Positions 21,101 through 45,325 of a stretch of 64,000 nt of DNA are shown in pieces (positions within the stretch are counted from its first letter, which is position 1; each line of letters starts with the position of its first letter). The notes under the pieces were generated by a model that searched no databases, was not told where the DNA came from, and saw nothing but the letters and a program-made list of their open reading frames with translations. Position numbers and translations under genes: made by a program. This stretch comes from an uncultured Paenibacillaceae bacterium (GTDB taxonomy: Bacteria; Bacillota; Bacilli; Paenibacillales; K13), in assembly GCA_913056365.1 (NCBI GenBank), contig CAJXLT010000001.1, positions 620,001 to 684,000 on the forward strand, given 5' to 3'.

Positions 21101-21900
21101 AGCCATTATCTCGAAACATCAGCGTGCTAGTATGGATTGTACTGTGCACTGGATTATTGAGTGGGTGCATGTATCCCGGGTACAACTCCAGTGCAGTAGA
21201 TAATCGCGTGGCAGTACGGGAGGACGTTGTTCTTGTTCAAGCCGCGGTCGAAGAATATAGGAAGGTAACAGGTGTGTTACCTATACACAATAGTGATATG
21301 AGCACACCTAAGTATGAAAAATTTAAGATCGATTTCTCCAGACTGACGAACGGCCCGTTTCTAAGCAAAATTCCCGATAGTGCCTTTGAAAGTGGTGGGA
21401 AACATAACTATCTAATAATAGAAGATGGCGGTCAATTTCTCGTTCGCCTAATGGATATTCAAGTGTTCCAACAGGTCACCGATCTAGAAACGGTCGTTCG
21501 ACAATATAGACAAGCTAATAACGGTGATGTGCCGGGCAAAACAGAAATATCACCAGGATGGTATTCCATCGATTACGAGAAGCTGGACGTGGATCGATTG
21601 CAAGTGACGAGCATGTTCACTGGTAGTTTATTGCCCATACTCATCAGCCAAGAAGGAGAATTGGCAGTTGACTATGCTCCAGATATTATGAAGATTATTC
21701 GTGAACAGAAGGTTTCTTCAGAAGAAGGAGCACCTGCTGCTAACAGTTCAACTGCAGCGGTAAGCGGTTCTGAGCTTGCCAAGATGGATGATCTGCGCAG
21801 CTTATTAGTGGCATCTCATCAGTATGTACCCGTCAAATCCCAACCATATATTTGGGTAGACGACCAACCCATCCTAGCAACTGATAAGATGGACCAGTAG
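21097..21900 (+). CDS. yphF: YphF-like lipoprotein
   Basis: A 267-residue protein with a signal peptide and lipobox (LLSGC, Cys24), followed by an outer domain with repeated FxxxVxxLxxxVxxYR-type segments. Position immediately upstream of the spoIVA region corresponds to yphF of B. subtilis, also a lipoprotein. Two related segments (AAVEEYRKVTGVLP and ETVVRQYRQANNGDVP) suggest an internal duplication. A perfect terminator follows. Confidence 0.75.
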   Translation: MKPLSRNISVLVWIVLCTGLLSGCMYPGYNSSAVDNRVAVREDVVLVQAAVEEYRKVTGVLPIHNSDMSTPKYEKFKIDFSRLTNGPFLSKIPDSAFESGGKHNYLIIEDGGQFLVRLMDIQVFQQVTDLETVVRQYRQANNGDVPGKTEISPGWYSIDYEKLDVDRLQVTSMFTGSLLPILISQEGELAVDYAPDIMKIIREQKVSSEEGAPAANSSTAAVSGSELAKMDDLRSLLVASHQYVPVKSQPYIWVDDQPILATDKMDQ

Positions 21901-22054: not shown

Positions 22055-22150
22055 CGTCAATATCCCCTTCCCTCAGAAGTGCAACCCCAATATTGATATC
22101 CCTTTCCTCAAATCTGGAGATCACATATTGATATCCCCTTCCCTCAGAAA
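22055..22150 (-). repeat. Left repeat array of the island (three copies, minus orientation)
   Basis: Three degenerate copies of CTGAGGGAAGGGGATATC (minus strand) lie at about 22055-22080, 22092-22112 and 22126-22150. Two are followed by CAATAT. They match the unit on the far side of the transposase-like gene but in the opposite direction. The rest of the gap 21997-22359 shows no gene. Confidence 0.7.
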
Positions 22151-22359: not shown

Positions 22360-23229
22360 TTAGGAGGAAACGTGAGCATTCAAAATAAAATAGCTTATAT
22401 TTTTCATACAGATGCTGGTTAATATGTGGATAAGAGGTGTATCGGAATGCATATAGTTCAATCTGAAGCAATATTCGTCCCAATAATGTTGCTGATATGT
22501 CCTGCCGATTCCTTTGAATGTATCGTTGATCCAGTTTTTAGCTTCACAATAAATCGGGTGAAGAAATGGATCGCGACGAAACTCAACTCGATTTAAGGTT
22601 GATCCTAACGCGTGTGACTCAAGGTGTTCCTCAAATAGTTTTTTCTCGCCGCTATAAGTTAATTTTTGACCGTCCAGATCTTTATCTGTTAAGCACTTAA
22701 TCTTAACGTATAATCCGCAATTATCCTCGAATGAATGATCACGTCTCACTTGACGTTCCTGTGCACAGCTAACCCATAGAGGGTGCTCACGCTTAGTTCG
22801 GAAATAGACATACGGTGGGCGTCCGTAAAAAACTACTCCTCCAGTTACATATCCAGCCATTCGCCGTTCGTTGTCCAGATCACTAATAGCATGTCTGATT
22901 TTATTCAGTATTTTCCATGATGTTTTATAGGTAACATGAATCAGTGCGGCAAGTTGAACTGCGTTGACGCTGGCTTTGGTGGAAACAAGCTCGATTGCTT
23001 TACGCCATTTGAATAGAGAGGTGCGACTACCCTCCAATATGGTGCCCGCTGTAAGTGTAGTTTGGTGACGACATAATTTGCATTGATATAGGGGTAAGGA
23101 CCGAACGCGCGAGTGAATGGTGTAAGCCTGTCGGTGGCCGCAGCTAGGGCATAAGAACCCGTCCGGCCATTTCTGACGGTAAAAAAACTGGTAAGCCACA
23201 TCATCATGTATCGAATGATTCGGTTTCAC
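22360..23229 (-). CDS. IS1595-like transposase-derived protein, probably domesticated
   Basis: The 289-residue protein starts at a GTG behind GGGGG. Its N-terminus is the zinc-ribbon of IS1595-type transposases: W-P-D-G-F-x-CPSC and CKLC (Cys27, Cys30, Cys50, Cys53). A helix-turn-helix region follows (about 75-120). The C-terminus keeps the IS1595-like RTYQQHYWDEYCFRLNY signature. The expected first catalytic Asp region reads GYVTGGVVFYGRP and has no acidic residue, and I cannot find the remaining DDE-type residues. No terminal inverted repeats are seen. Two LexA-type boxes control its promoter. I read it as a DNA-binding relic under SOS control, not a mobile IS. Confidence 0.75.
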   Translation of the reverse strand: MKPNHSIHDDVAYQFFYRQKWPDGFLCPSCGHRQAYTIHSRVRSLPLYQCKLCRHQTTLTAGTILEGSRTSLFKWRKAIELVSTKASVNAVQLAALIHVTYKTSWKILNKIRHAISDLDNERRMAGYVTGGVVFYGRPPYVYFRTKREHPLWVSCAQERQVRRDHSFEDNCGLYVKIKCLTDKDLDGQKLTYSGEKKLFEEHLESHALGSTLNRVEFRRDPFLHPIYCEAKNWINDTFKGIGRTYQQHYWDEYCFRLNYMHSDTPLIHILTSICMKNISYFILNAHVSS

Positions 23230-23279
23230 GAGTATCCCCCTTTTTAATATAAGAAAAATGGATTACAGACGACATAACA

Positions 23280-23291
23280 GAACAAACGTTC
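23280..23291. promoter_or_regulatory. LexA-type box 1
   Basis: GAAC-AAAC-GTTC, a perfect match to the Bacillales LexA (DinR) core GAAC-N4-GTTC. It lies just downstream of the predicted start of the transposase-like transcript. Confidence 0.8.
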
Positions 23292-23301
23292 CCTATAAAT
23301 A

Positions 23302-23330
23302 ATAATACAAGAACAAGTGTTCTGTGTCAA
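23302..23330 (-). promoter_or_regulatory. SigA-type promoter of the transposase-like gene
   Basis: On the minus strand TTGACA (23325-23330), exactly 17 bases, then TATTAT (23302-23307). Start is near 23295. The leader to the GTG is about 65 bases. Confidence 0.85.
23311..23322. promoter_or_regulatory. LexA-type box 2
   Basis: GAAC-AAGT-GTTC, a second perfect LexA core, placed inside the spacer between -35 and -10. Together with box 1 it would block polymerase binding and escape. Confidence 0.82.
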
Positions 23331-23381: not shown

Positions 23382-23620
23382 TCTCTGAGTAAAGGGGATA
23401 TCGAAGGAAGGGACGCATTATGAATTCTCTGAGTGAAGGGGATATCGAAGGAAGGGACGCAATTCTCTGAGTAGAGGGGATAACGTTGTAAAGGCGTGGA
23501 TACAAAACTACTGAGGGGGGTGGCAACTGATTTTATCGTCAGGCAAATGAGGGGATTGAGGATTAAACGATTGCATAAGGTGAATGTGCTGAGTGAAGGG
23601 GATAACGACGTAAAGGCGCA
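23382..23620 (+). repeat. Right repeat array of the island (four copies, plus orientation)
   Basis: Copies of CTGAGTGAAGGGGATAWCG lie at about 23382-23415, 23422-23460, 23461-23495 and 23588-23620. The first two share a tail GAAGGAAGGGACGCA; the last two share a tail GTAAAGGCG. The stretch 23620-23816 shows nothing I can name. Confidence 0.75.
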
Positions 23621-43127: not shown

Positions 43128-44222
43128 ATGAAACCGAAATCACGAATTGTACATCTGCCTGTATACCAGCCGGGCAAGCCAATGGAGGAAGTAAAGCGAG
43201 AGCTTGGGTTAGACAAGGTGACGAAGCTGGCATCCAATGAAAATCCATTCGGCTGCTCGCCGAAAGCACGGGAAGCAATCATGGCTGAGCTGGACGCTAC
43301 TCATATTTATCCCGATGGCGGCGCAGTTGCATTGACGACAGCATTGAGCGAGCGCTTGGGCGTTCAGCCGAACCAAATTATATTCGGCGCCGGGTCTGAC
43401 GAAGTTATCTTAATGCTGACTCGCGCGTACTTGCTGCCAGGCGATGAGACGGTTATGGCATCGCATACGTTCCCGCAATACAAGCACAACGCGGAGGTAG
43501 AAGGAGCCACCGTTATCGAAGTGCCGCTGAAGGATGGGAAGCATGATCTGGAGGCAATGCTCGCGGCATGTACAGACAAGACGAAGATCGTCTGGATCTG
43601 TAATCCGAACAATCCAACAGGCACGATAGTGACACATAAGGAAGTGGAACAATTTCTGAACAGCTGTTCGCCAGATACGATGGTCGTATTGGACGAGGCT
43701 TATGTTGAATACATCGATACACCGGAGTTCCCAGACGGATTGGCGCTTTTGAAGCAATATCCGAATGTGGTGTTGTTGCGCACGTTCTCCAAGATCTATG
43801 GGCTTGCTTCATTGCGCATCGGCTACGGCATTGGACATCCAGATGTTATCCATGCCGTTAATCAAGTAAGAGAACCATTCAATACGACGAGATACGGTCA
43901 GGTTGCTGCATTAGCATCCCTAGCGGATGATTCCTTCGTAGCCGAATGTCGGGAACGGAATGTGGAAGGGATTAAGCTGATTCAAGACCGACTCGATGCG
44001 TTAGGACTGTCCTATTTCCCTGCTTATGGAAACTTCATCATGATTCATACAGGACGGCCGGCACAGGCTGTATTCGATGCGCTGCTTCGTCAGGGCTTCA
44101 TCGTGCGTGGCGGGCATAGCCTAGGGTATCCGGAGTCGATTCGCGTAACGATCGGCAGCCGTGAGGAGAATGAAGCTTTCTTGACCGCACTGGAGGAAGT
44201 GCTGAAAACGGTAAGCGTGTAG
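43128..44222 (+). CDS. hisC: Histidinol-phosphate aminotransferase
   Basis: HisC transfers the amino group to imidazole acetol phosphate and in Bacillales also serves tyrosine/phenylalanine transamination. The 364-residue PLP enzyme shows LASNENPFGCSP, CNPNNPTGT, LDEAYVEY and the PLP lysine in FSKIYGLASLRIGYG. ATG 43128 lies 9 bases after GAGGGG; a GTG at 43122 is too close. Its place between trpA and tyrA fits the aromatic role. Confidence 0.95.
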   Translation: MKPKSRIVHLPVYQPGKPMEEVKRELGLDKVTKLASNENPFGCSPKAREAIMAELDATHIYPDGGAVALTTALSERLGVQPNQIIFGAGSDEVILMLTRAYLLPGDETVMASHTFPQYKHNAEVEGATVIEVPLKDGKHDLEAMLAACTDKTKIVWICNPNNPTGTIVTHKEVEQFLNSCSPDTMVVLDEAYVEYIDTPEFPDGLALLKQYPNVVLLRTFSKIYGLASLRIGYGIGHPDVIHAVNQVREPFNTTRYGQVAALASLADDSFVAECRERNVEGIKLIQDRLDALGLSYFPAYGNFIMIHTGRPAQAVFDALLRQGFIVRGGHSLGYPESIRVTIGSREENEAFLTALEEVLKTVSV

Positions 44223-44233
44223 GAGGGGATAAG

Positions 44234-45325
44234 GTGACAACAGTAGCCATATTTGGCGTCGGTCTTATAGGCGGCTCGCTTGCTCTTTGTTGGAAGGGCA
44301 AGCCTGGGCTGCATGTGATTGGACATTCGAACAATCCGGCATCCGTGGACAAGTACTTGAAGCGGAACGTAGTAGATGCAGCCACGACTTCGATGGAGGA
44401 AGCTGCGCGTGATGCTGATTTCATCTTTTTGTGCGTGCCTGTCGGCTGCTTGGAAGATTATTTGTCCAAGCTGAACGCCATGCGTCTGAAGCCGGGCTGT
44501 ATCATTAGCGATGTAGGCAGTACGAAGCGAACAGTGATGGATGCAGCAAGCGCTATGCAATGGGATCAAGTGTATTTCATCGGCGGGCATCCAATGGCTG
44601 GCAAGGAGCAATCCGGTGTAGAGGCGGCGAGCTCGCATTTGTTCGAGAATGCGTTCTATGTGCTTACATCAGACGACTCAACGCCCGTTCAGGAAGTCGA
44701 GCGGCTAGAGCAACTGCTAACCCATACGCGCGCTCACATTGTGAAGATGGCACCTTCTCAGCATGATGATATTGTCGGGGCAGTCAGTCACTTGCCGCAT
44801 GTCATTGCGGTAGCACTTGTCAATCAAATAGCTGAATACAATACGGATAACGACCATTATGAACGCCTGGCAGCAGGCGGATTCAGGGACATTACGCGGA
44901 TTGCTTCCAGCGATCCGATTATATGGCGCGATATATTGCTGAACAATCGTTCGGTCGTGCTGCGCTTGCTTCAAGACTGGAAGAAAAGGACAGACCAATT
45001 CATCGACTTGCTGACAAAGGAGGACGGCGATGGAATCGAAGCTGAATTTGTGAACGCAGGGAGCTTTCGGGATGCGTTGCCGGAGCGGCGCAAGGGAGTC
45101 ATTCATTCGACCTATGATGTGTATGTGGATGTGCCTGATCATCCTGGTGTAGTCGGGGAGATAGCAGGTCAGCTCGGAAGCCGCCAGATTAATTTGAGCA
45201 ATATTCACATTATGGAAAGTCGATTGGACGTTCCGGGTGTGATGCGCTTGTCCTTCCGCGAAGAAGAACAGCTTGATCGAGCGGTGGAAGTGCTCAAGGA
45301 ACTCGGTTATTCCGTGCATTTTTAA
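44234..45325 (+). CDS. tyrA: Prephenate dehydrogenase with ACT domain
   Basis: TyrA oxidises prephenate to 4-hydroxyphenylpyruvate with NAD. The 363-residue protein has the Rossmann motif FGVGLIGGSLA, the SDVGSTKRTVMDA and GGHPMAGKEQSGVEAA motifs, and a C-terminal ACT domain (about 290-363) for amino-acid feedback. A GTG start follows AGGAGGGG. aroA (EPSP synthase), which follows tyrA in B. subtilis, is not here. Confidence 0.95.
   Translation: MTTVAIFGVGLIGGSLALCWKGKPGLHVIGHSNNPASVDKYLKRNVVDAATTSMEEAARDADFIFLCVPVGCLEDYLSKLNAMRLKPGCIISDVGSTKRTVMDAASAMQWDQVYFIGGHPMAGKEQSGVEAASSHLFENAFYVLTSDDSTPVQEVERLEQLLTHTRAHIVKMAPSQHDDIVGAVSHLPHVIAVALVNQIAEYNTDNDHYERLAAGGFRDITRIASSDPIIWRDILLNNRSVVLRLLQDWKKRTDQFIDLLTKEDGDGIEAEFVNAGSFRDALPERRKGVIHSTYDVYVDVPDHPGVVGEIAGQLGSRQINLSNIHIMESRLDVPGVMRLSFREEEQLDRAVEVLKELGYSVHF

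Follow-up and report, generated by a model that had tools for sequence, protein, structure and literature searches.

Transposases of the IS1595 family (NF033547; PF12760 combined with PF12762) possess a zinc ribbon, DNA-binding helices, an RNase H-like core and a C-terminal motif, and an element of this family is described as generating 8-bp target duplications (PMC12561309). SOS control of catalytic transposases is described for IS10, possibly Tn5, and ISCR, with a LexA site in the transposase promoter (PMC13393415). In the account of PMC8049555, REPIN-RAYT systems combine a single-copy tyrosine enzyme, the RAYT, with the REPINs that it duplicates; the transposase-derived gene is chromosomal and vertically inherited, and related repeats occur around it as well as dispersed without it. 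The Merlin/IS1595-like proteins of eukaryotes come from conserved ORFs that belong to the IS1595 superfamily and in part lack the DDE motif; domestication has been suggested for them, and conserved ends are reported as not found (PMC8101967). They are not known to be under SOS control. No account of SOS-controlled triad-less IS1595 proteins or of their arrays appeared among the papers listed in searches of the open-licence literature.

The gene P1 and its relatives combine features of these systems. They share with the IS1595 family all the protein parts named above, end repeats resembling the ends of triad-bearing relatives, and LexA-type boxes, also found at strongly scoring family members of the order. 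They are unlike the family in the missing triad, the lack of target duplications above chance, the presence of several repeats per side and, for P1, scores below the family cut-offs. As the triad and target-duplication tests fail, P1 is not filed as an IS1595 insertion sequence. The chromosomal, vertically inherited gene with related repeats around it and at gene-less sites recalls REPIN-RAYT, but the clade has a DDE-type scaffold without catalysis, predicted SOS control and often several paralogues. A LexA site in the transposase promoter is common to IS10, possibly Tn5, and ISCR, whose transposases are catalytic, whereas here LexA boxes persist through a whole triad-less radiation. The Merlin/IS1595-like proteins agree in the conserved ORF and the partial loss of the DDE motif, and differ in the points given above.

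The window, i.e. the whole analysed stretch of 64,000 nucleotides, contains the following features of P1, its protein and its promoter:

22360-23229, minus strand: gene P1, 289 aa (from ORF, Pfam/NCBIfam, AlphaFold2 model and alignments)
P1 residues 9-56: zinc ribbon (PF12760)
P1 residues 72-121 (approximate): helical DNA-binding region, putatively helix-turn-helix
P1 residues 127-238 (approximate): RNase H-like core without catalytic residues
P1, after the RNase H-like core: C-terminal helices
23236-23242, minus strand: likely ribosome-binding site AAGGGGG before the GTG start, from sequence
23280-23291, minus strand: LexA box 2, GAACGTTTGTTC, perfect GAACN4GTTC just past the -10 hexamer, near the expected transcription start
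23302-23330, minus strand: SigmaA-type promoter TTGACA-17-TATTAT, from sequence
23311-23322, minus strand: LexA box 1, GAACACTTGTTC, perfect GAACN4GTTC in the promoter spacer

The GTG start codon is located at 23229, and P1 lies between a lipoprotein-like gene (ending at 21900) and spoIVA (from 23864), both named from their translations. The sequence-only reading had described an intact zinc ribbon and unrecognisable DDE acidic residues, and both observations are borne out. The zinc ribbon matches PF12760 with 41.5 bits (Pfam cut-off 25.4); the match to the DDE profile PF12762 is weak (16.3 bits, Pfam cut-off 27), the NF033547 score stays below the NCBIfam family cut-off (57.1 versus 75), and P1 aligns G, a gap and E with the D, D and N of IS1595. 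The AlphaFold2 model (pLDDT 91.9, pTM 0.89) shows the secondary structure of an RNase H-like core, in which the triad positions map to strand 1 (131), strand 4 (210) and the long helix that follows strand 4 (229). In a second look at fold matches the best were DDE enzymes, ISCth4 (Z 8.3, 170 residues, rmsd 3.8) and Hermes (Z 8.2), Z values of about 8 being middling. Foldseek with the model returned no PDB match under E 0.001, and the family profile gave only three irrelevant matches against PDB sequences (E 0.48-0.65). A defence system was rejected as an assignment for P1, as PADLOC gave no match. The viral library search yielded two nameless matches under 0.001, and four phage records gave partial matches. 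Among the 20 plasmid records listed of 284, the highest identity was 29% and no clade member was seen, though distant ones may occur on plasmids; where the listed matches name a feature, it is a transposase of IS1595 or DDE type, and others are unannotated.

The genome of the window (G000) has three full copies, P1 plus the paralogues P2 (C1:972709) and P3 (C7:92838). A fourth IS1595-like protein is encoded by L004 (G000:C5, 1135-2100, minus strand), with a counterpart, L020, in genome G001; much of its RNase H-like core is missing between the zinc ribbon and DNA-binding helices and the C-terminal motif. Both genes have a perfect LexA box upstream, and no flanking repeats at up to two mismatches except for one weak match.

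P1 matches 132 of the 392 genomes of the order, spread over 30 of its 49 genera. A first contig search with P1 alone as query found no relative; the genus- and family-level searches covered two genomes. The 188 relatives fetched (185 without the triad, i.e. 175 distinct proteins, and 3 with it) comprise 93 loci (set 1), 15 extra copies from the genomes G002 and G090, and 80 named loci (set 2, mostly Paenibacillus and Cohnella). Set 1 is non-random, being search-returned and hand-picked mostly from the top of a ranked order-wide list, with four loci from a separate list. Set 2 holds the best 80 of 471 relatives, including the three triad genes (L210, L227 and L246, set apart for carrying D-D-N) and 10 loci whose protein is identical to one of set 1, which were removed for box and repeat counts.

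Alignment to IS1595 members, which had been proposed as a check on the active site of P1, found the full triad in 0/185 group members and DDN in 9/9 comparison sequences (L210, L227 and L246, from the same similarity search as set 2, together with four sequences of the order and two transposases annotated as IS1595). When the 93 loci of set 1 are aligned, D or E occupies the first, second and third catalytic positions in 2%, 1% and 16%. Beyond these loci the alignments are looser: among the 77 other named loci, D or E occurs at the first position in 11 and at the second in 3. The alignment of all 185 rows has a gap at the second position in 175 rows and D or E at the first in 13, and D lies within three residues of both positions in 4/185. 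In a maximum-likelihood tree (65 rows as input, L179 and L200 dropped by the program), the 53 triad-less rows form one clade on a 100/100 branch with the triad-bearing rows on the other side, and L210, L227 and L246 fall outside the triad-less clade. We infer that catalysis was probably lost once, in a common ancestor, and that a radiation followed. In alignment A2 (the window protein plus 75 of 103 listed references, a list omitting L001, i.e. the window gene, and L050, L088, L111 and L123), the PF12760 zinc ribbon and the IS1595 model NF033547 each match 76/76 members and the Pfam DDE domain 47/76; unlike P1, some other group members exceed the NF033547 cut-off. The clade is not of the HUH/Y1 tyrosine type, given these NF033547 matches and the DDE transposases among the best fold matches.

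On the minus strand, the promoter hexamers TTGACA (23330-23325) and TATTAT (23307-23302) are separated by a 17-bp spacer, and both perfect LexA cores were found where they had been noticed, one in this spacer and the other past the start, at a spacing of 31 bp. Four perfect boxes occur in the window versus 0.94 expected from base composition (about 0.0013 per 100 bp), two of them at P1. The two others (43658-43669 and 44941-44952) fall within genes that, judged from their translations, resemble hisC and prephenate dehydrogenase, and are probably due to chance. The genome has lexA above the curated cut-off, preceded by several boxes of the GAACN4GTTC type, most with one mismatch.

Conservation of the boxes in related genomes had likewise been suggested as a test, and it was found throughout the clade. 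With up to one mismatch allowed within 200 bp upstream, LexA boxes precede 86/93 genes of set 1 (control windows 44/551), 66/67 named non-overlapping genes of set 2 (28/399) and 15/15 extra copies from G002 and G090 (2/90); chance is rejected, the control windows being far lower. Start codons were script-chosen, so some absent boxes may reflect wrong starts. Perfect boxes were detected in 46/67 genes of the named set versus 0/399 control windows, and 37/44 box-to-box spacings in this set measure 26-30 bp. Promoter-like sequence at a box is present in 79/93 loci of set 1, a count that tolerates up to two mismatches in each hexamer and has no control windows beside it.

Within the order, strongly scoring IS1595 genes likewise have LexA-type boxes (9/18 versus 12/108 in control windows; perfect boxes 5/18 versus 3/108), namely L057, L058, L059, L062, L065, L070, L073, L074 and L076, which suggests SOS-controlled transposition in Paenibacillus relatives. 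Among the named triad-bearing genes, boxes occur at L210 and L227, and none was found at L246 (other phylum, short flank). Because boxes also precede these strongly scoring genes, SOS control would be older than the loss of catalysis; it probably predates triad loss and is not a mark of recruitment.

The sequence-only reading saw no terminal inverted repeats, a statement that does not survive a look outside 22360-23330, where two copies downstream and four upstream all face P1:

22061-22076, plus strand: inward-facing repeat TATCCCCTTCCCTCAG, downstream side
22132-22147, plus strand: inward-facing repeat TATCCCCTTCCCTCAG, downstream side
23385-23400, minus strand: inward-facing repeat TATCCCCTTTACTCAG, upstream side
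23429-23444, minus strand: inward-facing repeat TATCCCCTTCACTCAG, upstream side
23467-23482, minus strand: inward-facing repeat TATCCCCTCTACTCAG, upstream side
23589-23604, minus strand: inward-facing repeat TATCCCCTTCACTCAG, upstream side

The repeat motif is TATCCC-N-TT-N2-CTCAG. The consensus of 370 copies, gathered with the chosen motif at up to two mismatches and so with a core partly fixed by construction, adds CCTTwTG-N3-CAC-TATCCC outward. The 16-base version, with up to two mismatches, has 44 copies in the genome versus 9 of a control pattern. Repeats surround P1, P2 and P3, and six inward-facing arrays are gene-less (C1 at 692k, 928k, 949k and 985k, C2 at 39k, C7 at 72k). Among relatives, where 0-9 copies occur per side, inward-facing repeats are present on at least one side of the gene in 83/85 loci of set 1 and 64/64 of the named set, and on both sides in 71/85 and 54/64. 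Within 900 bp of the gene, the ratio of inward to outward repeats is 156:1 (set 1) and 124:3 (named set) upstream, and 127:0 and 89:0 downstream.

None of the 18 strongly scoring IS1595 genes, some of them with short or broken ORFs, has the motif within 700 bp; nine genes had initially been missed, of which five were recovered, while L061 and L077 yielded no gene and L068 and L078 were left out. The triad-bearing L227 has one upstream motif copy. Both ends of L163, which bears the triad, agree with the repeat at 10/13 specified bases (reached by 85 and 7 of 20000 shuffles), and the left end of L246 at 11/13 (35 of 20000 shuffles); its right end, with a short window, scored 5. We infer that the repeats may be multiplied ancestral terminal ends, and they look like recognition sites.

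Exact motif copies occur in 15/19 genomes of the order with the gene and in 0/11 without it, reaching 106 in G071 and 100 in G002. A further sample, covering 398 genomes of the class, contains the motif in 28 of them. The sample includes 38 genomes of the order: four with the gene have 34, 4, 5 and 13 copies, and of the 34 without it 28 have no copy and 6 have one each. Outside the order 18/360 genomes contain the motif, 16 of them in one or two copies. Two genomes of the same class and of other orders, G467 (17 copies) and G519 (13 copies), are motif-rich. Left and right arms of one gene are more alike than arms of paralogues (0.72 in 48 genes versus 0.65 in 126 pairs, permutation p about 0.0005); within-gene likeness is higher in 12/15 genomes and not higher in 3/15. 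In the 12, local array duplication could cause or add to the likeness.

spoIVA neighbours both P1 in G000 and its 70% identical counterpart L018 in G001, a different species, despite saturation of synonymous sites between the two genes, and other groups of members are also syntenic across species. In 14/17 pairs with measurable dS, dN/dS amounts to 0.055-0.271; the zinc ribbon, the DNA-binding helices and the RNase H-like scaffold are under purifying selection. Of three gene-less arrays compared between G000 and G001, two occupy the same place in both with different array content, and the array at C1:928k is present in G000 and absent from G001.

Target duplications of 8 bp (8/8) flank the triad-bearing L163, L164, L165 and L057; L058 lacks them when paired at 1 kb but has 8/8 when paired at 2.2 kb. 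Among 165 clade loci with both arms, tested on the presumption of equal distance from both arms, 8-bp duplications number at most one per offset, versus 1-3 in shuffled controls. G002 has at least seven copies whose DNA is 82-93% identical over 1.1-1.6 kb and whose arrays vary in number. The G002 pair L143/L144 (88% identical) has clear element ends, homology starting and stopping just outside both flanking repeats, as in an insertion sequence; the larger G002 group has no clear ends, homology stopping outside the repeats at points that vary from copy to copy. By eye, the amplified G002 copies L148-L152, L154 and L155 seem to end by terminator-like hairpins, with variable boundaries outside the repeats. 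G071 has three copies with proteins 96-98% identical, and their alignment shows no clear element ends. No match exceeds the IS1595 cut-offs in G000, and none was seen among the matches listed for G002.

On balance, we lean towards P1 being an SOS-induced protein that binds, and does not cut, the repeats descended from ancestral ends. An IS1595-derived ancestor would have lost its DDN triad a single time, keeping the zinc ribbon, the DNA-binding helices and the RNase H-like scaffold. LexA would repress P1 through the two promoter boxes until DNA damage releases this repression, judging from the sequence. The protein would then bind, most likely, TATCCC-N-TT-N2-CTCAG, i.e. the terminal repeats multiplied into inward-facing arrays around the gene and at gene-less sites. 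Probably multimeric, and with its nuclease core dead, it may bridge or coat these sites instead of cutting them. Its role during SOS, in transcription, replication or DNA folding, would in our choice be architectural or regulatory, and the cell may benefit from it. The earlier suggestion of a recruited DNA-binding protein rather than an active insertion sequence is supported by the missing triad and the conserved boxes; the idea of a single relic gives way to an order-wide clade. Against the binding-protein reading, the gene still multiplies in G071 and G002, which a domesticated gene need not do; also against it are the absence of the C1:928k array from G001, the lack of an exact motif in 4/19 gene-bearing genomes and the single motif copies in 6/34 genomes of the order without the gene. 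The 3/15 genomes in which arms of one gene are no more alike, the loose alignment at the catalytic positions and the equal-distance presumption of the target-duplication test count on the same side.

Multiplication is the main evidence for a still-mobile element, an explanation we regard as unlikely, though well worth keeping in sight. Here the dead transposase would recognise and pair the repeats, cutting would fall to a nuclease of the host or of a helper that is active during SOS, and the gene-less arrays would be non-autonomous derivatives, as REPINs are. Mobility agrees with the amplification in G002, G090 and G071, where the homology of the copies is bounded, with the L143/L144 boundaries just outside the repeats, with the wealth of exact motifs in G071 and G002 and with the array of G000 missing from G001. 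It is opposed by the 165 loci without target duplications above chance, which triad-bearing IS1595 copies do have, by the differing homology ends of the larger G002 group, by the synteny of P1 and several other members between species, and by the failure to find a match over the IS1595 cut-offs in G000 or among those listed for G002. The latter also speaks against a trans-dominant repressor, which would respond to the same SOS signal as active IS1595 and block its transposition by occupying similar ends or forming dead mixed multimers. The LexA-type boxes shared with strongly scoring IS1595 genes and the likeness of the L163 ends to the repeat fit such a repressor; the clade repeat, however, differs from IS1595 ends at the CCC/CAA core, and arrays without a gene are left unaccounted for, so that we consider it improbable.

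An active nuclease with relocated catalytic residues appears quite improbable, although the fold is retained in the model and the fold matches and amplification occurs in some genomes. A new active site is hinted at only by E66 (86% acidic) and E148 (80% acidic), which are conserved in the clade and mostly or wholly absent in four aligned triad-bearing relatives. E66, however, is close to the zinc ribbon and not part of the core, which leaves E148 as one new acid where a triad needs three; D119, D251 and E252 are not new because triad-bearing relatives share them in all or some rows. Triad loss and scores below family cut-offs would also be expected of a decaying remnant with chance boxes and ordinary intergenic repeats. 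This explanation is largely refuted by the comparative data, i.e. purifying selection, synteny, and LexA boxes and repeat orientation that far exceed the controls across the order, and we regard it as very improbable.

A rather speculative suggestion is a new kind of SOS-inducible repeat system, built on transposases without catalytic residues: a clade that would maintain and multiply itself together with its end-repeat arrays, recruiting host repair or replication enzymes during damage and organising chromosome sites across Paenibacillus relatives. Family models label the genes of the clade as IS1595 transposases or score them below cut-off, though these genes make up a long-standing clade that is under selection and has LexA boxes, a bacterial DDE-type counterpart of REPIN-RAYT. 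What a cell gains from a non-cutting transposase produced only after DNA damage thereby becomes a testable question.
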